DNA from: Muribaculaceae bacterium
GTDB lineage: Bacteria; Bacteroidota; Bacteroidia; Bacteroidales; Muribaculaceae
Direction: 5' to 3'
NCBI GenBank assembly: GCA_017553785.1
Contig: JAFZKD010000111.1
Coordinates: forward strand, 1 to 64,000
Length of the DNA stretch: 64,000 bases
Position numbers and translations under genes: made by a program. The number at the start of each line of letters is the position of its first letter. Within the stretch, counting starts at the first letter, position 1. Positions 5,152-52,882 of this stretch are shown here, piece by piece. The notes below the pieces were generated by a model that worked only from the letters and a program-made list of their open reading frames with translations, was not told the origin of the DNA and searched no databases.

Positions 5152-6150
5152 TCAATAGACGCTAATGACTTCCTTCCAATTGTAGGGCGCATCTTGGAAT
5201 GTCTGCCTGATGAGCCGGCCTAAGCAGCTGCAAAGGTATGCGACCACGATGAGGATGATGAAGAAAATCGGGATGTTCAGCGGGAACAGGAAATTCAGTT
5301 TGGTGGTAAACAGGCAGATTTGGATGATGTAAATCTCCAAACAAAGTCCGCCTACAAAACGCACGATGAAATTCCCGGCTTTTGTGTTGTATATCGACTT
5401 GGCCCACTGGCCCATGCACAGCCAGTATAGGTAATATGCAACGGCAATCATTGGAATGAGACTGTATACGTGCAGGAAACTCAGGCTCTCGACCCTGTCG
5501 GTGACCCCGGTGAGGAGATAGAACCCTGCCACACCCAACAGGCAATAGATCAGGTTGCGCCATTGGTGGTCGGCCTGTTGATGATTCTGATTAATGGAAC
5601 TCATCATGCCCATTTTGGCACCCAGGAGCATGTACAGGAAATACAGAGGCCATCTGATGTTGTTTGTGCTGTAACTGAACATGGCAAAGGGGAAGTCACG
5701 GTTGAGAATGAAGTAGAACCACAAGATGGTGATAAGAGCCACCGCAGCGATGACCCAGTTGAGCCAACGCCACAGATACAGCCCGACAAAGTAGATGAAG
5801 ATATACAGAATCATGATGGTCGGAACAAACCATCGTCCTCCATCAGTTATTACCGAAATGATATCAACATGAAAATCGTCGAAGAAGACGCACCGCACAA
5901 TAGAGATAGCGAACACAACAGGGTAAATGCGATTGATGCGGCGCTTGTACCAGTTGGGAAAATCAGATGCGCTTTTAAAGGGCTTCAAGAACAACGTGAA
6001 ACCCGAGCAAAAGAAAAATAGCACATTTCCTATGGCGCCTCCAGTCGCTAGCCAATTGAACTTCACATACAGGAATCCGATGTGAGAGTTGGTGATGAGA
6101 AGTACAGCTAGAAACTTGAGGATATCAATTCCGACATTTCGTTCTTTCAT
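5152..6150 (-). CDS. acyltransferase 3 family membrane protein
   Basis: A 332-residue protein with about ten hydrophobic segments and the family's N-terminal signature (GIDILKFLAVLLITNSH, with the conserved His after the first helix) and FFFCSGFTLFLKP. Acyltransferase 3 enzymes O-acetylate or succinylate surface polysaccharides, lipid A or peptidoglycan at the inner membrane. The substrate cannot be read from the sequence. The gene is monocistronic and convergent with feoAB. A promoter-like TACTTTTG lies at 6193-6186, with a TTG 22 bp upstream of it. Confidence 0.85.
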   Translation of the reverse strand: MKERNVGIDILKFLAVLLITNSHIGFLYVKFNWLATGGAIGNVLFFFCSGFTLFLKPFKSASDFPNWYKRRINRIYPVVFAISIVRCVFFDDFHVDIISVITDGGRWFVPTIMILYIFIYFVGLYLWRWLNWVIAAVALITILWFYFILNRDFPFAMFSYSTNNIRWPLYFLYMLLGAKMGMMSSINQNHQQADHQWRNLIYCLLGVAGFYLLTGVTDRVESLSFLHVYSLIPMIAVAYYLYWLCMGQWAKSIYNTKAGNFIVRFVGGLCLEIYIIQICLFTTKLNFLFPLNIPIFFIILIVVAYLCSCLGRLIRQTFQDAPYNWKEVISVY

Positions 6151-41779: not shown

Positions 41780-44035
41780 ATGACTAAGATGAAAGAAAGG
41801 CTACTTTGTCTGATATTGCTACTGTTTTCGATGAGTGTGAGTCATGCTCAGAGCTTGCTGCCCGCATCAGTTCAGGAGTTCCTCAATGAGCATGCTTATA
41901 TAGAGAGCATCAAGCCTAATCGCTCGGTGCCTCTTCATGAGTATGCACGCTTTGCTCCTACCAAGTTGATTGATGGTCAGGAAATGGTAGATGCCTTTAT
42001 AGGCATTCGGGATAACAGCATGGTATCTGTGCTGCAGAATTCTGGAGTTGTCGTGAACTGTCTGTTTGATGGCTTTGTGACCGCCCAGATTCCATTGGAC
42101 CGTCTGACCAGTGTGTCGCGGATGAAAGGCGTGACTGACGTGGAGATCAGCAAACTGGTTCAACTGTGTACTGACAGCACACTGAGTGTCACCCACACAA
42201 ACCAGGTGCTGAACGGGATGATGTATGACCTGCCCCAAAACTATGATGGCACAGGAGTGATTGTTGGTATTATTGACAATGGATTTGATTACCAGCACAG
42301 GGCATTCAGGTGCAGTGATAACGTTGCCAAGTCCCGAATTGTCAGGGTATACAGTACCCAATTGAAAACCGGTCATCCGGCACTTTATAATAAGGTGATT
42401 AAGTTACCGGGATCGGTGTTCATGAATGAGGAGATACTCAGCCTCACCTACGACAATACCAGCACTCATGGCACTCATACGGCAAGTATTGCCGCAGGTA
42501 CTCATGTGAACGGTTATGGCGGCATGGCTCCGGGAGCCGACATCGTGCTGTGCTCAGCGACCAATGTTGACGGCAGCATGTCGTTGGTGGAAATCGCAAA
42601 CTGTGTGCGGTATATTGATGCCTATGCCGACAGTGTTGGCAAGCCATGTGTGATGAGCCTTAGCGTGAGCACGGCAGATGGTCAGCACGATGGCAACGAT
42701 TACCTCACTAAAGCCATTTCTCGCATTGTCGGTCCAGGCCGCATCTTTGTCATTGCAGCAGGTAATAATGCCCGAATGCCATTCTATTCACACAAGGTGG
42801 CCAGTGAGTCTGATCCGATTAACCTCATGTTCAATTCTTATAGTTCAGACACGGCTGACTCCACGTATTATTTCCGTGGCCATAATTCTGACATCTGGGT
42901 TCGGGAACCCCGAACCAACCTGTATTATAAATTCCATGTTCTAGACAAGTTCACTGGGCGTATTGTTTGGGAGTCGGAACAGTTCTCGTCATCCCAGACC
43001 CTTGATGTGAGCACATTCCAAGGTTATTATCGCCCCGATTCGACCATTGGAGAGACAGGTGCTATCAAAGCGACCTTAAAGACCTCATCTGATGGCTCCA
43101 AGTATGGCATGAGCATCGCCGTGTATAATTTCCTGTGTGAGAGTTACGCGACCTTGAATGGTGTGAAGATGAGCCGGTATGCCTTAGGTGTCAGCATATG
43201 GCCAAGAAAGGAGACGCCTTGCACGATAGATGCCTGGACATATGTGACTAAATCTGGATTCGGTTCGTACAAAGGAACCGTAAGGACGTTGGATGGAATC
43301 ACACACACTAACTTCTATTCTCAAGGCACTGACTCATGTTCCATTGGTACCTATGCTGTCGGCGACTCGATCATCTCGGCAGGTGCCTATATCGCAAGAA
43401 ACAGCTATTATTCCTACTTTAAGAACAAGATCATTACTGACCGGACATTAACCGTTGGAGATATTTATAACCTGTCGGCTTATGAGGCTGAAGGCTATGG
43501 CCCAACAGGAAAAGCATTGCCGACCATCTGCGCCCCTGGTGTGAATGTAGTTGCCGCAGGAAGCCGTTATTCGTATTTTGCCAATAAACATCAGAACACG
43601 GTGATGGTGACCGATGATGGCTGCTATTGGGGTGTGATGACTGGCACCTCGATGGCTTCACCAACCGTGGCAGGCATCATTGCCCTTTGGATGGAGGCAT
43701 ATCCTCAACTCTCAGTCGCCGAGGCTAAAGACATTATAGCTGAAACTGCTATCCATGACAGTTTTACCAACGGCACTAATAGGGAACACTTTGGTCCTAA
43801 TGGCAAGATTGATGCTTATGCAGGTATGCAACTCGTACTGTCTCGTCATGGCTTCATCATTGGTGATGTCGATGATAACGGAGTTGTCAATATTGATGAC
43901 ATCACGGCATTGATTGACTATATGCTTAATGGCGGAGGCTCGATTAATGAAAGGGCTGCCGATATTGACCAAAACGGAATCATCCAGATATCCGATTTGT
44001 CAGATTTGATAGACTTGTTGTTATATCCGGGCTAA
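41780..44035 (+). CDS. secreted S8 family serine peptidase with dockerin-like C-terminus (second of pair)
   Basis: A 751-residue paralogue of the preceding gene with the same plan: signal peptide ending SHAQ, propeptide-like region, Asp166 (IVGIIDNGFDYQH), His230 (STHGTHTASIAAG), inserted domain, Ser624 (GTSMASPTVAG). The C-terminal repeats are more diverged: GDVDDNGVVNIDDITALID and ADIDQNGIIQISDLSDLID. The identical position of Asp166 and the conserved propeptide indicate tandem duplication with divergence. It is co-transcribed with the first and ended by a strong hairpin. Confidence 0.9.
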   Translation: MTKMKERLLCLILLLFSMSVSHAQSLLPASVQEFLNEHAYIESIKPNRSVPLHEYARFAPTKLIDGQEMVDAFIGIRDNSMVSVLQNSGVVVNCLFDGFVTAQIPLDRLTSVSRMKGVTDVEISKLVQLCTDSTLSVTHTNQVLNGMMYDLPQNYDGTGVIVGIIDNGFDYQHRAFRCSDNVAKSRIVRVYSTQLKTGHPALYNKVIKLPGSVFMNEEILSLTYDNTSTHGTHTASIAAGTHVNGYGGMAPGADIVLCSATNVDGSMSLVEIANCVRYIDAYADSVGKPCVMSLSVSTADGQHDGNDYLTKAISRIVGPGRIFVIAAGNNARMPFYSHKVASESDPINLMFNSYSSDTADSTYYFRGHNSDIWVREPRTNLYYKFHVLDKFTGRIVWESEQFSSSQTLDVSTFQGYYRPDSTIGETGAIKATLKTSSDGSKYGMSIAVYNFLCESYATLNGVKMSRYALGVSIWPRKETPCTIDAWTYVTKSGFGSYKGTVRTLDGITHTNFYSQGTDSCSIGTYAVGDSIISAGAYIARNSYYSYFKNKIITDRTLTVGDIYNLSAYEAEGYGPTGKALPTICAPGVNVVAAGSRYSYFANKHQNTVMVTDDGCYWGVMTGTSMASPTVAGIIALWMEAYPQLSVAEAKDIIAETAIHDSFTNGTNREHFGPNGKIDAYAGMQLVLSRHGFIIGDVDDNGVVNIDDITALIDYMLNGGGSINERAADIDQNGIIQISDLSDLIDLLLYPG

Positions 44036-44056
44036 AAGACATTGGCCAAAGAAATC

Positions 44057-44095
44057 AAACAGGACGCATCTGGAATGTGTCCTGTTTTGTTATGT
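44057..44095 (+). terminator. Rho-independent terminator after the S8 pair
   Basis: A 13-bp stem AAACAGGACGCAT paired with ATGTGTCCTGTTT (one G-T pair), 5-nt loop, then a T-rich tail. It may also serve gpmI from the other side. Confidence 0.75.
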
Positions 44096-44117
44096 TATTT
44101 ATCTGATTTACAGATGT

Positions 44118-45641
44118 TTATTTGGTTATATCAATGAGCCCGACTCCTGTCATCTCTTTGGGCTGTGGAAGCTCCATGATTTGAAGGATGCTGGGTGCCA
44201 CGTCGGCGAGACGGCCCGTGTTGATGATGAGTTCGGGATTCTCGGTCACATAGATGATGGGCACGGGGTTCAACGAGTGTGCCGTGTTGGGCGTGCCGTC
44301 GGTGTTGATGGCATGGTCGGCATTGCCGTGGTCGGCAATGATGATGACCTCATATCCCGTGGCGCGTGCCGCCTCGACGGTGTCATGGACACAGCGGTCA
44401 ACTGCTTTGACCGCTTGGCTGATGGCATCATATACACCGGTGTGACCGACCATGTCGCCGTTGGCGTAGTTCACGACGATGAAGTCATACTTGTCCTCGC
44501 GGATTGCGGCAACCAGCTTGTCTCGCACCTCATAGGCGCTCATCTCGGGCTTCAGGTCATAGGTGGCGACATCGGGCGAAGGCACGAGGATGCGGTCCTC
44601 GTTCTCGAAGGGTTGCTCGCTGCCACCGCTAAAGAAGAAGGTCACATGGGCATATTTCTCGGTCTCGGCGATATGGAGCTGTCGCTTACCGAGGCTTGAC
44701 AGGTACTCCGACAGGGTGTTATCGACATTCTCCTTGGGGAAGAGCACGTGCATGTCCTTGAACGTCGGGTCGTAGGGGGTCATGCAGTAGTATTGCAGGC
44801 CCGGGATGACCTTCATGCCGTCGGCGGGTTTGTCCTCCTGGGTCAGGGCGATGGTGATCTGCTTAGCGCGGTCGTTGCGGAAGTTGAAGAAAATCACCAC
44901 GTCACCCTCTTGGATGCGACCCCCGACAGTTGAGTTGACGATAGGCTTGATGAATTCGTCGGTCACTCCCTCGTCATAGGATTCCTGAATGGCCCTGACC
45001 ATGTCGTCGCTTTGTTTGCCGACACCGGCAGTCAGCATGTCATAAGCCACCTTGATGCGATCCCAGTTGTTGTTGCGGTCCATGGCATAGTAGCGTCCGA
45101 TGACCGTAGCCACCGTGCCGGCACTCTGCTTGCAGTGTTCAACCACCTGAGATACAAAACCTTTACCACTCTCAGGGTCAGTATCTCGGCCATCCATAAA
45201 GCAATGGATGAATACTTTTTCCAATCCATACTGCTGGGCGATATCGCATAGAGCCATCAGGTGTTCCTGTGAACTGTGCACACCGCCGGAGCTGGTCAGA
45301 CCCATGATGTGGAGGGACTTGCCGTGTTCCTTGGCATAGGAGTATGCGCTGACGATTTCGGGATTCTTCAGGATTGATCCGTCCTTGATGCTCTTGTTAA
45401 TCTTCACCAGATCCTGGTAAACCACACGGCCGCCACCGATGTTCAGGTGGCCCACTTCGCTGTTGCCCATTTGTCCGTCGGGCAGACCTACGTCCTCACC
45501 GCAGGCTTTGAGGGTGCTGTGAGGATAGGCGGCTCTCAGGAAGTCAAGATAAGGCGTCGGTGTACTGTAAATCGCATTGCTGTGGCCGTTGGGACCCTCG
45601 CCCCAACCGTCCAATATCATTAATAATGCTTTCTTTGCCAT
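44118..45641 (-). CDS. gpmI: 2,3-bisphosphoglycerate-independent phosphoglycerate mutase
   Basis: A 507-residue dimanganese enzyme of glycolysis that interconverts 3- and 2-phosphoglycerate. The N-terminal DGWGEG metal site and the phosphorylated Ser61 in [14 protein letters not shown] are clear. The inserted transferase domain shows [11 protein letters not shown] and [14 protein letters not shown], and the second metal site is in [10 protein letters not shown]. Length is standard. Two promoter candidates lie upstream: a near one (TAACTTTG at 45691-45684) and a distal perfect one (45939-45909). Confidence 0.96.
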
Positions 45642-45683
45642 AATTGTATAATACCTTATTAGAAATTTACCTGTTTTGGACTA

Positions 45684-45691
45684 CAAAGTTA
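45684..45691 (-). promoter_or_regulatory. Near -7 box of gpmI
   Basis: Minus-strand TAACTTTG, leader about 40 nt; no TTG at ideal spacing. Confidence 0.45.
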
Positions 45692-45908
45692 GTACAAACT
45701 TTTCAGTTGTCGGTTTTTAACTGGGGGATATTTTGAAATACTGCTTTTGTTGGTGGTGAGCCGTGTCTGTCAAAATGCAGAAAGGAAGTTTTGATCGCTG
45801 TTTTCTTATTTAGTTCATTGCCAATGGTTTTTGAGAATGACTGTTTATAAATAGGGAGGGGCGGAACTGTTAAAGAACTGTTAAATGTAAAAAATCCCCT
45901 TCATGGCG

Positions 45909-45939
45909 CAAAGGTAATACCGTGGCATGTTGTTCACAA
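45909..45939 (-). promoter_or_regulatory. Distal promoter reading toward gpmI
   Basis: Minus-strand TTG (45939-45937), 20-bp spacer, TACCTTTG (45916-45909). It would give a leader of about 260 nt before gpmI, or a separate short RNA. A 7-codon ATG frame begins within a few bases of the predicted start. Confidence 0.55.
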
Positions 45940-45947
45940 GGGTAAAA

Positions 45948-46026
45948 ATAGTTGTTAGTTGTTAGTTGTTAGTTTTTAGACGTTAGACATTAGACTTTAG
46001 ACATTAGACGTTAGGGGGCATCCGCG
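45948..46026 (+). repeat. Heptanucleotide tandem array A with GGCATCCGCG end
   Basis: Ten units of 7 bp in strict register, consensus TTAGNNN (variants TTAGTTG, TTAGTTT, TTAGACG, TTAGACA, TTAGACT), from 45948 to 46017, followed at once by GCATCCGCG. The same array type and the same end sequence recur at 50719-50805. Confidence 0.85.
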
Positions 46027-46141
46027 GGCTTTTTGGGCCCACGTATTATGGTGACATCGGCAGGGGCGGTGCATCATTCCAGCTGATAGCACCCGCTTTG
46101 ATCGGGAGAGCTGAGGTTTCGCCCTGGGTGAGGCAAGAGGG

Positions 46142-46182
46142 GCAAAAGAAGAGTGGCACTCCACTAGTTGGGAATGCCACTC
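46142..46182 (-). terminator. Terminator downstream of the large BspA-type gene
   Basis: On the minus strand GAGTGGCA (46182-46175) pairs with TGCCACTC (46158-46151), followed by TTCTTTTGC. It lies beyond array B, about 140 bp after the stop codon. Confidence 0.65.
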
Positions 46183-46194
46183 CTTCTAATAACG

Positions 46195-46327
46195 CTAGTC
46201 TCTAGTCAACTATTCACTGTTCACTGTTAACTATTCACTGTTAACTATTCACTGTTAACTATTCACTGTTAACTATTCACTGTTAACTAATAACTATTAA
46301 CTAGTAACTGTTCTCTGTTAACTGTTA
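46195..46327 (-). repeat. Heptanucleotide tandem array B abutting the stop codon
   Basis: Nineteen 7-bp units, read on the minus strand mostly as alternating TAACAGT and GAATAGT, with degenerate units at both ends. The unit next to the gene contains its TAA stop codon, so the array begins exactly at the end of the reading frame and lies in the 3' untranslated region before the terminator. Confidence 0.85.
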
Positions 46328-49300
46328 ATTGCTCAGGAGCATGTCGATGAGTGCGGTCACGTCGGCGATGGTCACGAAGCCGTCGCCGTTCACGTCGGCA
46401 GCAGCTGAAGCATTGATGTTATTCAGCAGGATGTCGATGAGAAGGGTCACGTCGGCGATGGTCACGCTGCCGTTTCCATCCACGTCACCAGTCAGGCCGG
46501 CGTTTTTATCGGTGAAGTAGCCCGGGTTGCTCGTGCCACCATCGATATGGGCGTAAGCCTTATCCGTGTGACTGCTGTCGTAGGTCGTGCCCTGGCCACC
46601 CACCAGCTTGGTGCAGTTCGTGAACATATAATTAGAAGATGTGACCGCATTAGTCGTCCAGCCGCTGCCAGCATAGATGGTTGTCAAGTTAGTGCATCCA
46701 TAGAACATGTATGCCATGTCTGTTACCTTGGAAGTATTGAAGTTGCTCACGTCAAGACTCGTCAACTTTGAGCAGCCATTGAACATTCTGCTCATGGTTG
46801 TCACCTTAGCCGTGTTAAAGTTGCTCACGTCAAGGCTCGTTAAACCAGAGCAGCCAGAGAACATATAGGACATGGCTGTCACGTTAGCTGTGTTGAAGTT
46901 GCTCACGTCAAGGCTCGTCAATTTGCTGCATTGATAGAACATTGTATACATGCTAGTAACCTTAGCCGTGTTGAAATGGCTCACGTCAAGGCTCGTTAAA
47001 CTAGAGCAGCCATAGAACATAGAGCCCATGGTCGTCACTTTGGCCGTGTTAAAGTTGCTTACGTCAAGGCTCGTCAACTTACTGCATTTATAGAACATGG
47101 ATCCCATGTATGTAACATCCTCGGTATTGAGGTAAGATATGCCGGTAATGGACGTAAGGTTTGTCATATTCGAGAACCAAGAGCGGGTGGAGATGGGTCG
47201 GGCATTGGCAAATGACGAGTTAAAGACGACCTTGGTCACGTTGAAACAGGTGCTGTCGGTGCGCCAGCCTGGGTTACTGTTGGCGTCGTTCAGGTCGTAG
47301 GTCGTACCCGTGCGTGTGCTGCGCAGGTTGTCGTAGTAGAACGTCAGCGTCGTGTTTGAGGGCGTGTAGCAGGCGTAGGCCTCTGCCCATTCGGTGAAGT
47401 AGCCGGGGTTGCTGTATCCGCCGTCGATATGGGCGTAGGCCTTATCCGTGTGGCTGCTACTGTAGGTCGTGCCCTGACCACCCACCAGCTTGGTGCAGTT
47501 CTTGAACATTTCGGTAGAATATGTAACCGCATTAGTCGTCCATCCGTCGCCAGCATAGATGGTCGTCAGATTCGTGCAGCCATAGAACATGTTCAACATG
47601 GTTGTCACCTTGGCCGTGTTGAAGCCGCTTAGATCAAGGCTCGTCAACTTCGAGCAGCCATTGAACATGTAATACATGGTTGTCACATCCTCGGTATTGA
47701 GATAAGAAATGCCGGTAATGGACGTGAGGTTACTCATCTTCCAGAACCAAGCATGTGTTGATGTGGGACGGGCGTTGGCAAATGACGGGTCAAAGACGAC
47801 CTTGGTCACGCTGCGACAGGTGCTGTCGGCGAACCAATCAGGAGCAATGGATGCTTCTTGTAGGTGGTAGATCGTGCCCGTGCGGGAACAGCGCTGGTTG
47901 TCGCAGTAGAACGTCAGCGTCGTGTTCGATGGCGTGTAGCAGACGTATGCCTCCTTCAAATCGCACAGGTAGCCGGGGTTGCTATATCCGCCGTCGATAT
48001 GGGCGTAGGCCTTGTCTATGTGATTGTAATTGTAGGTCGTGCCTCGGCTACCCACCAGTTTGGTACAGGCATAGAACATATTGGTAGATGATGTGACGGC
48101 ATTAGTCGTCCATCCGTCTCCAGCATATATGGCCATCAAATTCGTGCAGCCATAGAACATGTTTAACATGGTTGTCACCTTGGCTGTGTTGAAGTTGCTC
48201 AAATCAAGGTTCGTCAACTTCTTGCACTCATTGAACATATAACTCATGTTTTTCACATTCTCGGTATTGAGGTAAGTCAGGCCGGTAATGGACGTGAGTT
48301 TACTCATCATCGTGAACCATTGACGGGTTGAGGTGGGTCGGGCATTGGCAAATGACGGGTCAAAGACGACTTTAGTCACGTTGGCATAGGTGCCATCTGT
48401 GTACCACTCTGGAGAATCATAACCTTCGTTCAGGAGGTAGAGCGAGCCTTCATGGTATTGGATTGCACCATCGTAATAGAACGTCAGCGTCGTGTTCGAG
48501 GGCGTGTAAACGACATAGGCCTCGAGATCCAGCTTCACGTTCCTCACGGCGAAGTAGTCACCCTTTTTATTGACACTGCTGTCCTTGGTGTAGGTCCAGG
48601 TCAGGGTGTGGGTGCCTTCGCTCAATTCGTCGCTCCTGTAGGTCTCCCAGTCGTTGTCACGTGCACCGTAGGAGAATTGCTGAACGCCGTCGATCGAGAA
48701 GATGCACTTGTCGTAGGAGGTTCCCTCACCCCATGCCTTGAAGTCGAACGACAATGTGGCTCCGCCAGCGGGCACGGAGACTGTGGCAGTCAGCGTCGAG
48801 GAACTGCTGTGAACACTGTTGTTGCTGGACATGGCATAGAAGCTGCCATCATATACCATCGTCTTCCAGGGATAGGATCCCGTTGAGGTAAAGGTGATGT
48901 TGCCGTCGCCGTTGACAGTCAGCGCTTCGTTGAGGGTCGGCAGGGCCTTGATGGTGGGGAAGTTCTTCCAGTTGGTCGCTGCCTTATAGGCGTTCACGGC
49001 CGAAGAGGGCACATATAGCGTCGCACCCGTATAGTTGGAGAAACCGCTTGAGAGCGTCGGCGGCGTGGTGGCACGGCACACCACTGTCTTCAACGCATCA
49101 CATTTAACGGAACCGCCACTAATGCTAGTAACACCTGTGCCAATATCCACTGTATGCAAGTAGTTATCATAATTAAAGGCCATTCCCATCGTGGTGACGT
49201 TGTTAGGGAGAACAACACTCTCCACATGGTATTGGTTGGCACGAGTCTGGTCTTCGCCATTAACAGCACCCTTATTCTCCATTGGCTGTTCACTGAAGGC

Positions 49301-50344
49301 CCTACTGGCAACACCAGTCACATTGTATGTCGTGCTGTTGTATTTGACCTGCTCGGGGACGAACACATCACCCACGTAGTTTACCATGCCATTTTCTAAA
49401 TAGTCCCATTGATAGATAACGCTGACGGTGTTGGTGCCAGTCAAGAGATAATAAATGTTGTCTACTGCAAAGTCGTATGGGTAGTCAACTGATATTCTGC
49501 TTTGGCCATTTGAATTGCGGAAGTTACTCCAATAGGGTGCCGCCTCATAAAGGGACTTCGCATAGGGGCCAGGGACAACAACAATTCCAGTGGTATAATG
49601 CCCGGTATCAAATGTGTTGCTCTGGATGGTAGGTGGCGTTACAGATTTGCAGTAGATATATAATAGGCTGTAGTAATATTGGCCATCTTCATAGTGGCGG
49701 GCGCAATGCTGGAATGCATGGGAGCCGATGCTGGTCACACCACTGCCGATGGTGACTTCCCACAAATCATTACATTCATTGAAGCAGTAATCAGGAATAC
49801 TGGTAATACCAGAGCCCAGGGTCACCTTTTGCAAAAACCAACAATTCGAAAAAGCACTTGGGCCTATTGAAGTTACAGAATTGGGAATGGTGATTGTAGT
49901 AAAATTACTATTGAGGCAACGATAGAATGCACCTTCTCCAATAGTAGTAAGGCTGGAGGGCAGCGTGATGGATGAAATACCAGTTCTTTGGAATGCTCCT
50001 TGTCCAATGGAAGTAATTGTATTGGGGAGAGTCATAGATGTGAAATTGCTCACATCGTAGCCCGCCTCATAATTGGCAAACGCATAATCTCCAATAGCGG
50101 TCACCGTATAGGTATAGCCATTATAGGTCACGGTGCTGGGGACGGAATAGGAAGAATTCGGATAGTCTGCTGCTGTGCCGTTTGTGCCGCCGCTATTGGT
50201 CACCTCAACAGTTCTGCTGCTTGACGTGTTTGTGAGGATGTTGTAATAGAAGTTTCCAGATTTGAAGGTGTAGGCTGTGGCGGTTAGGGCGCTCGAGAGG
50301 CACGTCACAAGGGCGAGCAGTTTTAGGAATAATAATTTTTTCAT
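46325..50344 (-). CDS. large BspA-type leucine-rich-repeat surface protein with dockerin-like C-terminus
   Basis: A 1339-residue exported protein. Signal peptide (residues 1-24), then LRR_5/BspA repeats (about 60-270 and again about 335-470). A jelly-roll-like segment follows (about 480-620). Then come three modules of about 130-190 residues, each opening with YTPSNTTLTFYYD and SFANARPTST and carrying DUF285-type repeats (SLDVSNFNTAKVTTM, FYGCSSL). The last module holds about seven such repeats. The final 60 residues are two calcium-loop repeats, GDVDGNGSVTIADVTLLID and ADVNGDGFVTIADVTALID. BspA proteins act in adhesion. The gene has a strong promoter, a 340-nt structured leader and 7-bp repeat arrays on both sides. 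Confidence 0.9.
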   Translation of the reverse strand: MKKLLFLKLLALVTCLSSALTATAYTFKSGNFYYNILTNTSSSRTVEVTNSGGTNGTAADYPNSSYSVPSTVTYNGYTYTVTAIGDYAFANYEAGYDVSNFTSMTLPNTITSIGQGAFQRTGISSITLPSSLTTIGEGAFYRCLNSNFTTITIPNSVTSIGPSAFSNCWFLQKVTLGSGITSIPDYCFNECNDLWEVTIGSGVTSIGSHAFQHCARHYEDGQYYYSLLYIYCKSVTPPTIQSNTFDTGHYTTGIVVVPGPYAKSLYEAAPYWSNFRNSNGQSRISVDYPYDFAVDNIYYLLTGTNTVSVIYQWDYLENGMVNYVGDVFVPEQVKYNSTTYNVTGVASRAFSEQPMENKGAVNGEDQTRANQYHVESVVLPNNVTTMGMAFNYDNYLHTVDIGTGVTSISGGSVKCDALKTVVCRATTPPTLSSGFSNYTGATLYVPSSAVNAYKAATNWKNFPTIKALPTLNEALTVNGDGNITFTSTGSYPWKTMVYDGSFYAMSSNNSVHSSSSTLTATVSVPAGGATLSFDFKAWGEGTSYDKCIFSIDGVQQFSYGARDNDWETYRSDELSEGTHTLTWTYTKDSSVNKKGDYFAVRNVKLDLEAYVVYTPSNTTLTFYYDGAIQYHEGSLYLLNEGYDSPEWYTDGTYANVTKVVFDPSFANARPTSTRQWFTMMSKLTSITGLTYLNTENVKNMSYMFNECKKLTNLDLSNFNTAKVTTMLNMFYGCTNLMAIYAGDGWTTNAVTSSTNMFYACTKLVGSRGTTYNYNHIDKAYAHIDGGYSNPGYLCDLKEAYVCYTPSNTTLTFYCDNQRCSRTGTIYHLQEASIAPDWFADSTCRSVTKVVFDPSFANARPTSTHAWFWKMSNLTSITGISYLNTEDVTTMYYMFNGCSKLTSLDLSGFNTAKVTTMLNMFYGCTNLTTIYAGDGWTTNAVTYSTEMFKNCTKLVGGQGTTYSSSHTDKAYAHIDGGYSNPGYFTEWAEAYACYTPSNTTLTFYYDNLRSTRTGTTYDLNDANSNPGWRTDSTCFNVTKVVFNSSFANARPISTRSWFSNMTNLTSITGISYLNTEDVTYMGSMFYKCSKLTSLDVSNFNTAKVTTMGSMFYGCSSLTSLDVSHFNTAKVTSMYTMFYQCSKLTSLDVSNFNTANVTAMSYMFSGCSGLTSLDVSNFNTAKVTTMSRMFNGCSKLTSLDVSNFNTSKVTDMAYMFYGCTNLTTIYAGSGWTTNAVTSSNYMFTNCTKLVGGQGTTYDSSHTDKAYAHIDGGTSNPGYFTDKNAGLTGDVDGNGSVTIADVTLLIDILLNNINASAAADVNGDGFVTIADVTALIDMLLSN
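46536..48080 (-). repeat. Three near-identical blocks of about 90 bp within the BspA-type gene
   Basis: Blocks at about 46536-46628, 47427-47519 and 47989-48080 encode the same DKAYAHIDGG/TKLVGGQGTTY segment and are nearly identical at DNA level. Recombination between them would delete or add whole modules in frame. Confidence 0.75.
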
Positions 50345-50474
50345 AAGCGTAAACGGTGCCTCCTGAGCCCCCCGAATTCGGCTTTAAAGTATCAGTAAAA
50401 TGAAAGCGCAGGGACTTAGTTTGTCTGCTCGCTTCTATTGAGGTATCGCCAAACACCTTCTCCACTGCGAACAG

Positions 50475-50529
50475 TCATCCCCCACGCTCGGCCTTATGGT
50501 CGGGCCCTATCCCATGGTCAGGGGGATGA
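50475..50529 (-). other. Strong stem in the leader of the BspA-type mRNA
   Basis: TCATCCCCC (50475-50483) and GGGGGATGA (50521-50529) form a perfect 9-bp stem around a 37-nt GC-rich interior. It lies about 130 nt upstream of the start codon inside the predicted 340-nt leader. Confidence 0.5.
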
Positions 50530-50659
50530 GAGCGTACCACTCAACCAGCGACGGAGCGTTACTGACTGCCTTTGACCAGTGGATGAAAATTGGCGAAATT
50601 TCAATAGAAGGTCAAAAACAAAACGCTTTCGTCTTGTTAAAAATATGTCATGCTCGGCA

Positions 50660-50675
50660 GCGGGACACGTCCCGC
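50660..50675 (-). other. Hairpin near the 5' end of the BspA-type mRNA
   Basis: GCGGGAC-AC-GTCCCGC, starting about 9 nt after the predicted transcription start; likely a stabilising 5' hairpin. Confidence 0.4.
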
Positions 50676-50687
50676 CACTTCACGCTG

Positions 50688-50717
50688 CAAATATAGCATA
50701 AAAAAACGAAAAAACAA
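50688..50717 (-). promoter_or_regulatory. Promoter of the large BspA-type gene
   Basis: Minus-strand TTG (50717-50715), 19-bp spacer, TATATTTG (50695-50688). The -33 element lies one base from the start of heptamer array C. Predicted start is about 50684, 340 nt before the ATG. Confidence 0.7.
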
Positions 50718-50718
50718 A

Positions 50719-50805
50719 ATAGTTGTTAGTTTTTAGTTGTTAGACTTTAGACTTTAGACATTAGACATTAGTTGTTAGTTGTTAGTTGTTAGTTGGGCAT
50801 CCGCG
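50719..50805 (+). repeat. Heptanucleotide tandem array C with GGCATCCGCG end
   Basis: Eleven 7-bp units in strict register (ATAGTTG, TTAGTTT, TTAGTTG, TTAGACT twice, TTAGACA twice, TTAGTTG four times) followed by GGCATCCGCG. Same orientation, unit types and end sequence as array A, 4.8 kb away, with units in a different order. Confidence 0.85.
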
Positions 50806-51106
50806 TACACGTCGCCTCACTTATTTTAACCGCCCTGATGGGCGGGAAATTGAACAAATTATATTATAAAATTTTTAAATAAAAATTTCTCGCGCGTTGC
50901 GCGATCACAAGTTTTTAGGCACCCTCGCTATTTTATTAAGCTGATTTCACGAACAGGAAATGGAGTACGGCGGCATAGCCGCCGCCCACGAAACAAGCCG
51001 ACTACACATTTAGACTAACATTCCACATGTCATTCGACGAAACATGCCATGTAACATTACATGGGCCTGTTAGGGGCATTAATGAAGAAACAGGGAGTGG
51101 GTTGTG

Positions 51107-51135
51107 TTGAAAGTCGGATTTTTTGTGTACATTTG
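51107..51135 (+). promoter_or_regulatory. Promoter of the 566-residue BspA-type gene
   Basis: TTG (51107-51109), 18-bp spacer, TACATTTG (51128-51135); predicted leader about 43 nt. Confidence 0.65.
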
Positions 51136-51181
51136 CAAAATCAGTACAAAGAATGATATATCATTAAATATTTCCAGAACA

Positions 51182-52882
51182 ATGAAAGAGATTACGAAAC
51201 CTTCAAAAATGTATTGCGTGCTGGCAGTCCTGCTTGTTGCCTGCCTGTTCCCTGCCTTGGCTGCCGACTTTGAGGTTGACGGCATCTGCTATAACGTGAT
51301 CAACGAGAATGAGGTGGAAGTCACCAGCCCCGATTCGGTAAAATATGCTGGTGAGGTATTAATCCCCTCTACTGTCGTCAACGCTGGCACGACCTATCGT
51401 GTCACCCGCATAGGCAACAAGGCTTTCTACAGTTGTAAAGACTTGACCGTGGTCGATATACCCGAGGGTGTTACCTCGATCGGGGATAACGCTTTTGCCT
51501 ATAGCACGAAACTCGAGAACGTTGAATTGCCCAACTCACTTGTTTCTATTGAAAGATTTGGCTTCTATGGCTGTTCTTCGTTCACAACCTTTCATGTACC
51601 CCGCAATCTTGCGCAGTTTGGCGACCGTGCATTAATCGGATGCAGACAGATCCGGTTTTTCTCGTGCAGTTCTCTGAGCCAGCATTTCAAGGCCGTTGAC
51701 GGCGTGCTTTATTCCAAGGATATGACCGAGCTGTACTACTATCCGATAGCCGACCCGCGGACCACATTTGACGTTCCTGCCCCAGTAGCCCGTATCCATG
51801 AATATTGTTTTTATGGCAGCCCGACCCTGACGCAAGTGAATTTCCCCGAAACGCTCCGCTGGATAGACATGAACATCTTCAGGGATTGTAAAGGTATAGA
51901 GACGGCCTATATTCCTGACGGTGTGACGCACATGGATATGACCGTATTCGGGGGTTGCAGCAATCTGACCAGCGTTCATCTGCCAGCCGGTCTTGATTCC
52001 CTCGCGAACAGCACATTCATGTTGTGCGGCAAACTGACTGAGGTCGTTATCCCACGCAACGTGAAATACATCGGCACCTATGCCTTTTATCAGTCTGGTG
52101 TCAGGACTGTCACCTTTGAGGAAGGCAGTTGCCTTGAAACGATAGACCATGATGCTTTTCTCGAATGCCGCAGTCTGCAGTATGTGGATATGCCCAACAG
52201 CATCAAGACGATAGAATACCAGGCATTTTACAGATGCGATTCACTGGCGTGGGCTCATGTCAGTGATAGCCTGACAAACATGGGAACTTGCGTATTCGCT
52301 TATTGCCCATTGCTCACCGAATGTGAGATTCCCGGAGGCGTTACCACCATCTGGAATGCAATTGCCAAGTGTGAGGGGTTGAAGCGCCTGAAAATCGGCA
52401 GCAAAGATTCCGCACCAGGTGTCACGTTAATCAAGAATTGCGGTATTGTCGATTGTGAACAAATCGAACACCTCGAGTTAGGTGCTAATGTCGATTCACT
52501 GGAATCCCACGCACTGGTTGACCTGAAACACCTAAAGGTACTTATCAGTTGGGCGCCTGTTCCTCCCCGTTGCGATGGTTATTGGCACAGTTTCGACCCC
52601 TATCCGCAACAGATGTCGGTTGTTCTCTATGTTCCCAAGTCCTCGCTGGAAACCTATCGGACAGCTGTTGAATGGGAAAACTTCAAGACTATTGTCGCTA
52701 TCGAGGACGTGGGCGACGTGAATGGCGACGGCATGGTCAGCATTGCTGACGTGACGGCTCTCATCGATATATTGCTGGGCGGGAATCTTGACCGGGCCCC
52801 CTATTGCGACGTGAACCTTGACGGTGATGTCACGATCGCCGATGTGACGGCGCTGATTGACTTGCTATTGGGTAACGGTTAA
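51182..52882 (+). CDS. BspA-type leucine-rich-repeat protein with dockerin-like C-terminus
   Basis: A 566-residue exported protein. The ATG at 51182 is chosen because the upstream part of the frame overlaps the promoter. The signal peptide (ending ALAADF) is followed by LRR_5 repeats across most of the protein (ITRIGNKAFYSCKDLTVVDIP-type units of about 23 residues) to about residue 470. A linker leads to two C-terminal calcium-loop repeats: GDVNGDGMVSIADVTALID and CDVNLDGDVTIADVTALID. It is divergent from the larger BspA-type gene and ended by a very strong terminator. Confidence 0.9.
   Translation: MKEITKPSKMYCVLAVLLVACLFPALAADFEVDGICYNVINENEVEVTSPDSVKYAGEVLIPSTVVNAGTTYRVTRIGNKAFYSCKDLTVVDIPEGVTSIGDNAFAYSTKLENVELPNSLVSIERFGFYGCSSFTTFHVPRNLAQFGDRALIGCRQIRFFSCSSLSQHFKAVDGVLYSKDMTELYYYPIADPRTTFDVPAPVARIHEYCFYGSPTLTQVNFPETLRWIDMNIFRDCKGIETAYIPDGVTHMDMTVFGGCSNLTSVHLPAGLDSLANSTFMLCGKLTEVVIPRNVKYIGTYAFYQSGVRTVTFEEGSCLETIDHDAFLECRSLQYVDMPNSIKTIEYQAFYRCDSLAWAHVSDSLTNMGTCVFAYCPLLTECEIPGGVTTIWNAIAKCEGLKRLKIGSKDSAPGVTLIKNCGIVDCEQIEHLELGANVDSLESHALVDLKHLKVLISWAPVPPRCDGYWHSFDPYPQQMSVVLYVPKSSLETYRTAVEWENFKTIVAIEDVGDVNGDGMVSIADVTALIDILLGGNLDRAPYCDVNLDGDVTIADVTALIDLLLGNG

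Follow-up and report, generated by a model that had tools for sequence, protein, structure and literature searches.

Heptamer arrays around a dockerin gene of a Muribaculaceae bacterium, probable gene-less relatives of S23 elements

Introduction

The closest described counterpart of the elements treated here is the intervening sequence (IVS) of Coxiella burnetii, which, in the sections of its description on which we draw, lies within the 23S rRNA gene, is 428 nt long, carries an S23p open reading frame (ORF) and terminal inverted repeats, has tandem GACAGAT heptamers right before the S23 start codon, in two or three sets depending on the strain, and is excised by RNase III (PMC4990558). The same sections term the function and origin of the S23 IVS unclear and describe Xcc0516 as a homopentamer of four-helix bundles (PMC4990558). 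Our own subject is a 64,000-nucleotide stretch of a Muribaculaceae bacterium (assembly GCA_017553785.1, contig JAFZKD010000111.1, positions 1 to 64,000; hereafter the window), in which three arrays of 7-bp tandem repeats, A, B and C, lie around the gene of a 1339-residue dockerin protein (the host gene). These arrays probably belong to the same class as the inverted heptamer arrays that flank S23 genes (PF05635, or 23S_rRNA_IVP, a four-helix-bundle family), and are likely to represent S23 elements without the gene, either as relics or as non-autonomous copies. By an S23 element we mean an array of AG-type heptamers, an S23 gene and an array of CT-type heptamers, ~450–550 bp in all, with the two arrays mutually inverted. 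As far as the Coxiella IVS is covered in those sections, S23 elements resemble it in size, in the S23 ORF, in their inverted ends and in their tandem heptamers, and are unlike it in occurring between protein genes, in being bounded by a full array at either end and in the many lone arrays that go with them.

Two further systems, and one protein, invite comparison. Dispersed heptanucleotide arrays have served as markers in cyanobacteria, where the short tandemly repeated repetitive (STRR) sequences of Mazel and co-workers (1990) are said to be intergenic tandem heptamers scattered in the genome; to our knowledge, no partner gene has been assigned to them. The arrays described here are likewise tandem, intergenic and dispersed, and cyanobacterial S23 genes bear such arrays as inverted ends, although the host of the window belongs to the Bacteroidales and is not a cyanobacterium, and our cyanobacterial data come from plasmids rather than from chromosomal STRRs. 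Avd, the accessory protein of diversity-generating retroelements, is a related four-helix-bundle pentamer; no parts of such retroelements came up beside the arrays, no search having been aimed at them.

In the systems of repetitive extragenic palindromes (REP, REPIN) with their RAYT (Y1_Tnp) genes, the gene is described, in the parts of the account used here, as lying between inverted copies of a short repeat, further copies of which are scattered through the genome, paired or single, without the gene (PMC3116915). This general plan of a gene, inverted flanking repeats and gene-less dispersed copies is also that of S23 elements. On the same partial description the two differ in substance, since REPs are palindromes and RAYT a nuclease, while S23 elements combine tandem, AG/CT-polar heptamers with a four-helix bundle. 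The two systems coexist in the genus studied here.

Arrays of the window and S23 elements of the same genome

Arrays A (45948 to 46014) and C (50719 to 50795) consist of TTAGNNN heptamers, AG-type on the plus strand, and array B (46205 to 46331) of (A/C)ACT(A/G)TT heptamers, AG-type on the minus strand; A and B converge, 194 bp apart, and C is single, with no partner array within 600 bp. The strict runs comprise nine units in A (45955 to 46014, with a lag-7 match from about 45948), 11 in B (46208 to 46284, degenerate as far as about 46331 and spanning the host-gene stop codon at 46325 to 46327) and ten in C (50726 to 50792, with a lag-7 match from about 50719), and Tandem Repeats Finder reports all three. 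An earlier note, made from the letters of this DNA, had placed three such arrays around one gene, and both that placement and the common inner end of A and C, the plus-strand 10-mer GGCATCCGCG at 46017 to 46026 and 50796 to 50805, are confirmed; the strict 7-bp register with shuffled unit types that it described is supported too. Because several unit types are mixed within one array, the idea of a telomerase-like template for the TTAG units was abandoned. Elsewhere in the genome the 10-mer forms one arm of a GGCATCCGCG...CGCGGATGCC hairpin (L097, L093), and at one such place (L097, 2500 to 2720, contig C78) the hairpins have an AGTTTAG array and octamer-like repeats of CGCNAAGA for neighbors.

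PF05635 has six matches in this genome, none of them in the window, and for this reason A-B and C could only be derivatives of an S23 element. Two S23 genes elsewhere in the genome are enclosed by inverted array pairs, one on contig C2 with TTAG arrays and one on the window's own contig (C119, 162.7 to 163.2 kb) with AACTRTT arrays of the array B kind. Between array B and the right array of the latter element, 116 kb away, 42 bp are identical. Identity with the C2 element extends over 22 bp for A and 20 bp for C, and with other lone arrays over up to 32 bp. An S23 protein encoded in this genome matches the solved structure of Xcc0516 (2gsc) with E=2.6e-24.

The A-B interior (46027 to 46200) contains no S23 gene and is single-copy in the genome, which rules it out as a dispersed repeat; the likely terminator stem of the minus-strand host gene (46152 to 46165) falls within it. 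Folding of the A-B region is stronger than that of shuffled sequences (z = -3.27), a value that speaks of folding only and is no measure of cleavage. All three arrays lie between protein genes and not in a 23S rRNA gene, and an Rfam scan of 44000 to 52000 returned only sub-threshold, chance-like matches, with no rRNA family match.

S23 genes between inverted arrays

Support for this assignment comes from S23 loci across the genus, where S23 genes are present in 91 of 101 genomes. Our sample comprises 71 loci (33 returned by search and 38 fetched), and the flank counts leave aside two weak matches of the window's own genome in long frames (L258, L259) and two second copies (L316 and L317, of L255 and L256). 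Arrays, most of them heptameric, occur on both flanks of 51 of these 71 loci, as against one of 342 control genes. With a score of at least 14 as the cut-off, the flanks are inverted at 61 of 71 loci and at none of the 96 controls scored; the latter were those of the 342 with some upstream periodicity together with a random fifth, a choice that biases the comparison against our interpretation. The inverted score exceeds the direct score at 70 loci, direct repeats reaching 14 at four. When loci are merged by flank homology, the 71 reduce to 34 independent sites, 29 of which have inverted repeats. Periods of 7 and 14 dominate the flanks (8 or 16 at a few loci), and polarity is largely fixed, with an invariant AG in 41 of 51 upstream arrays and CT in 42 of 46 downstream arrays.

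These figures bear directly on the most ordinary explanation, that the arrays are heptanucleotide microsatellites grown by slippage at AT-rich intergenic sites, with S23 genes there by coincidence. Slippage yields no inverted pairs about one gene family, so the count of inverted flanks largely refutes this explanation, and slippage likewise leaves the fixed AG/CT polarity unexplained.

Likeness of units is also greater between the two sides of an S23 gene (0.73) than between orthologous elements (0.41; higher in 25 of 33 cases, equal in three, lower in five), which points to homogenization within the element. On the S23 protein tree, unit type changes 13 times, against a shuffled mean of 20.1. 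Coherence of this kind was rejected as proof of co-evolution of protein and unit, the clade mates being orthologous insertions. In Parabacteroides and Bacteroides (L188, L197, L199; also L172) an array-enclosed S23 gene lies directly downstream of gpmI, the gene that also neighbors the host gene of the window.

Dispersed arrays across the genome and the order

The search for TTAGNNN arrays that the earlier note proposed, across the genome and its relatives, finds them widely. The pattern used, three TTAGNNN units followed by TTAG, has 86 matches in the 2.54-Mb genome against one for the same pattern read backwards, which excludes chance, and the arrays occupy 22 sites on 16 contigs. Arrays of the AACTRTT kind have further sites in this genome. 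Across the genus, arrays of six TTAG units occur in 55 of 101 species, with unit dialects that vary by species. Periods other than 7 are almost missing, which again sits poorly with simple microsatellites: 969 kb around gpmI in more distant Bacteroidales hold 21 arrays of period 7 and zero to four of each period that is not a multiple of 7, and 313 kb of congeners hold 13 and zero to two, respectively. A 119-bp array at 5986 to 6104 of L080 (contig C49) is built of a third heptamer family, TTATCTN, and the sequence past the array on contig C82 is partly common to C20, C49, C38 and C5.

Among the 58 noncoding arrays in the stretches read, eight pairs lie within 600 bp of each other and all eight are convergent, AG-type then CT-type, as the two ends of an S23 element are, a regularity that slippage does not explain. 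Two of the eight enclose an S23 gene and six do not, A-B among the latter. A similarly mixed pair of unit families surrounds a GCATCCGC hairpin beside a gene end on contig C109 (L086). Five units is the commonest array length (32 of 97 arrays; four units in 22, six in 16). Stop codons fall within 24 bp of heptamer sequence in a mean of 4.89 of the six frames, compared with 2.89 when the order of columns is permuted, and 54 of 97 arrays stop all six; as the register is not a multiple of 3, the stop of a unit falls in every frame. Facing 3' ends have a lone array no more than 15 bp away in 35 of 97 cases (control 16%) and facing 5' ends in 23 of 65 (control 13%), and this closeness to gene ends of both kinds is a point in favor of the microsatellite explanation.

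Lone arrays and S23 genes also go together within genomes. The units of lone arrays resemble the S23 flanks of the same genome with a mean of 0.223, against 0.074 with permuted labels, a value that two of 5000 permutations reach. TTAG arrays are found in 51 of 81 genomes with a strong S23 match and in four of 20 without one (p=0.0008), and in none of the ten genomes that have no S23 match at all.

It is conceivable that the arrays belong to some other mobilizer, REP/RAYT for example, and that S23 elements are its passengers. Y1_Tnp genes are indeed present in 92 of the 101 genus genomes, and REP/RAYT likewise couples a gene with repeats on the same general plan (PMC3116915). Twenty Y1_Tnp loci (L414–L433), however, all have inverted, REP-like repeats of their own that are not heptameric, and heptamer arrays flank none of them. 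The test thus picks up a REP-like system where one was expected, and the RAYT repeats are distinct from the heptamers. One genome with no Y1_Tnp match (G013) moreover has 25 TTAG matches and four S23 matches. Also counting against a RAYT origin, Y1 transposition is not known to us to produce target duplications of the sort described in the next section. We give this explanation little credence.

Traces of movement

An S23 element occupies one site in a conjugative plasmid operon of Scytonema and of two Trichormus plasmids (L336, L338, L354), and the same site is empty in three plasmids (L346, L347, L348) that are ~98% identical to the full ones. The empty site reads AAAAAGTAATTAACA; GTAAT is present once when the site is empty and flanks the insert on both sides when it is full, which, on comparison of the full and empty plasmids, is a 5-bp target duplication, placed at the stop codon of the upstream gene. 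Such a duplication suggests a staggered cut. What remains of the element at this site in a Nostoc plasmid (L349) is its left array and a truncated S23 gene (AKTFQYLIVWQKAHQF...), showing that a lone array can arise through decay, and at another site (L351) both arrays are kept and the S23 gene is gone.

Two near-identical copies from Scytonema and Trichormus (the pair L336 and L338) differ in one array by 14 bp, or two units. A change in unit number such as the earlier note envisaged near the host-gene promoter is thus seen elsewhere, in these cyanobacterial copies. It is also what a microsatellite would do. The target duplication, together with the convergent pairs, is not, and we consider it unlikely that slippage at chance sites accounts for the arrays.

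S23 loci beyond the genus

When genomes were drawn from the whole phylum, 193 of 247 Bacteroidota genomes proved to have S23. Of 29 new loci taken from this draw, 16 have inverted flanks, and the inverted score exceeds the direct one at 25. Among plasmids, S23 occurs in 29 records, mostly cyanobacterial; in a sample of 17 loci (15 cyanobacterial, one from Gemmatirosa and one from Azospirillum), 14 have inverted flanks at a score of at least 14. Five of six S23-bearing plasmids have lone arrays with similar units elsewhere, a count taken with the neighbors of those arrays left unchecked. The GGGANNA pattern nearly equals its own reverse, so that its backward control is void, and its six single arrays are counted regardless of nearby S23 genes. 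Heptamer arrays on cyanobacterial S23 plasmids bear out the likeness to cyanobacterial heptanucleotide repeats to which the earlier note had pointed. Some cyanobacterial S23 genes lie within CRISPR operons, between cas6 and cas4 (L329, L330) or between cas10 and cmr3 (L337); the counterpart in PCC 7002 (L384) is without the insert.

The host gene and its neighbors

The host gene (46325 to 50344, minus strand) encodes LRR_5 and DUF285 repeats and a C-terminal type I dockerin. Its likely promoter (50688 to 50719, minus strand) consists of a -7 element, TATATTTG, at 50688 to 50695 and a -33-like TTTTG at 50715 to 50719, a pair that is probably of the Bacteroidetes type. Downstream lies gpmI (44118 to 45641, minus strand), for 2,3-bisphosphoglycerate-independent phosphoglycerate mutase, with a likely promoter -7 element, TACCTTTG, at 45909 to 45916 (minus strand). 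The closest gpmI matches come from rumen Bacteroidales recorded as Prevotellaceae, Muribaculaceae or Bacteroidales. After gpmI, the stem is made of inverted 9-mer repeats in one relative (L213) and of inverted heptamers in another (L189), other species having a plain GC-rich hairpin. Further dockerin proteins are encoded nearby, one with LRR_5 at 51104 to 52882 and one with a subtilase domain at 41780 to 44035, both on the plus strand.

The earlier note saw in the arrays a device of the surface gene, with C as a phase-variable promoter region and with A and C as direct repeats between which the 4.8-kb unit could be excised or exchanged. Array C does start one base past the -33-like element, as it held, and the left, outer end of A adjoins the gpmI promoter in the same manner, a point absent from that note. 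Of 93 lone arrays, 12, A and C among them, have a promoter-like TAnnTTTG no more than 70 bp away on their outer side (control 6.6%, p=0.019; inner side five of 93), and in three relatives (L156, L160, L161) CTAA/ACT heptamer arrays of other dialects adjoin the gpmI promoter as A does. The same gpmI promoter has no array in four others (L154, L155, L157, L158), however. The longest identical stretch between A and C is 26 bp, less than the 32 bp over which C is identical to arrays on contigs C82 and C83, so that the likeness of A to C is genome-wide and not specific to this locus; excision between A and C as a property of the locus was rejected on these grounds. Nor is it supported that the arrays bracket this transcription unit as such, given that TTAG arrays occur at 22 sites, that A and B face each other as the ends of one element would and that C stands apart. 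The proposed link to surface genes holds in part. Dockerin genes are enriched where a 3' end comes within 150 bp of an array (seven of 23 genes, against 31 of 365 other genes; p=0.004) and not where a 5' end does (one of 17, against 37 of 371), and with enrichment at 3' ends alone the arrays were rejected as a property of BspA/dockerin genes. That the arrays serve the surface gene is the least probable of the explanations weighed here.

Discussion

We thus regard A, B and C as probable gene-less relatives of S23 elements, and a number of observations have to be set against this assignment. Arrays A and B belong to different unit families, a state found in no intact S23 element of the genus sample. 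Inverted flanks fall below the cut-off at ten of the 71 genus loci, at 13 of the 29 phylum-wide loci (where arrays are degenerate and strong on both sides at only one) and at three of the 17 plasmid loci, one with direct arrays (L329) and two with none (L343, L345). Many genus loci are old orthologous insertions, and vertical descent alone may account for the coherence on the protein tree. Ten of 21 genomes supply the dialect signal, the other 11 scoring zero, with few S23 loci fetched per genome. The counts of TTAG arrays include those that flank S23 genes, so that their correlation with S23 is partly built in; of the four genomes that carry TTAG arrays without a strong S23 match, two carry many (G075 with 86 matches and G078 with 178, drafts 85% and 80% complete in which S23 matches are weak only). 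No lag-7 array at the threshold used was found in 160 kb of the genome's own sequence chosen regardless of arrays. A clean target duplication is seen at one site only: at L335, compared with its paralogue L334, TTCTA stands on both sides but one base off, and candidate duplications at sites 2, 3, 4 and 5 were rejected as not clean. Finally, we know of no nuclease activity in S23 proteins.

How S23 elements might move can be sketched along the following lines. The S23 pentamer would bind its cognate array, the modal length of which is five units, and the protein would probably aid the spread of the element or of a lone array, with a nuclease, an integrase or a polymerase as its partner. Unit number would then be likely to change, and units to become homogenized within an element and within a genome, through slippage and through exchange between arrays. 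Since their units are rich in stop codons and seven is no multiple of 3, the arrays would probably end translation in every frame and thereby make insertion at gene ends harmless.

Beyond the assignment of the three arrays, we put forward tentatively, and in the awareness that it may well prove wrong, a wider proposal: that a mobile system crosses phyla in which the S23 pentamer recognizes tandem heptamers in a clade-specific manner and spreads both the cassette and lone arrays, that the arrays of the Bacteroidota, the STRRs and the 23S IVSs form one family, and that the stop-rich 7-bp unit is an adaptation to harmless insertion. A link between dispersed heptamer arrays and S23 genes was not found in the open-access literature, subscription papers and preprints having been outside the scope of that search. 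Joining the two gives each a testable partner: the protein is small and its fold known, and the DNA ligand is defined. If the assignment of the arrays to S23 elements is right, a dispersed class of 7-base repeats would have a likely origin in a little-recognized mobile element, many unexplained intergenic arrays by promoters and stop codons would be traces of one mobile family, and such arrays could affect the expression of the genes beside them.

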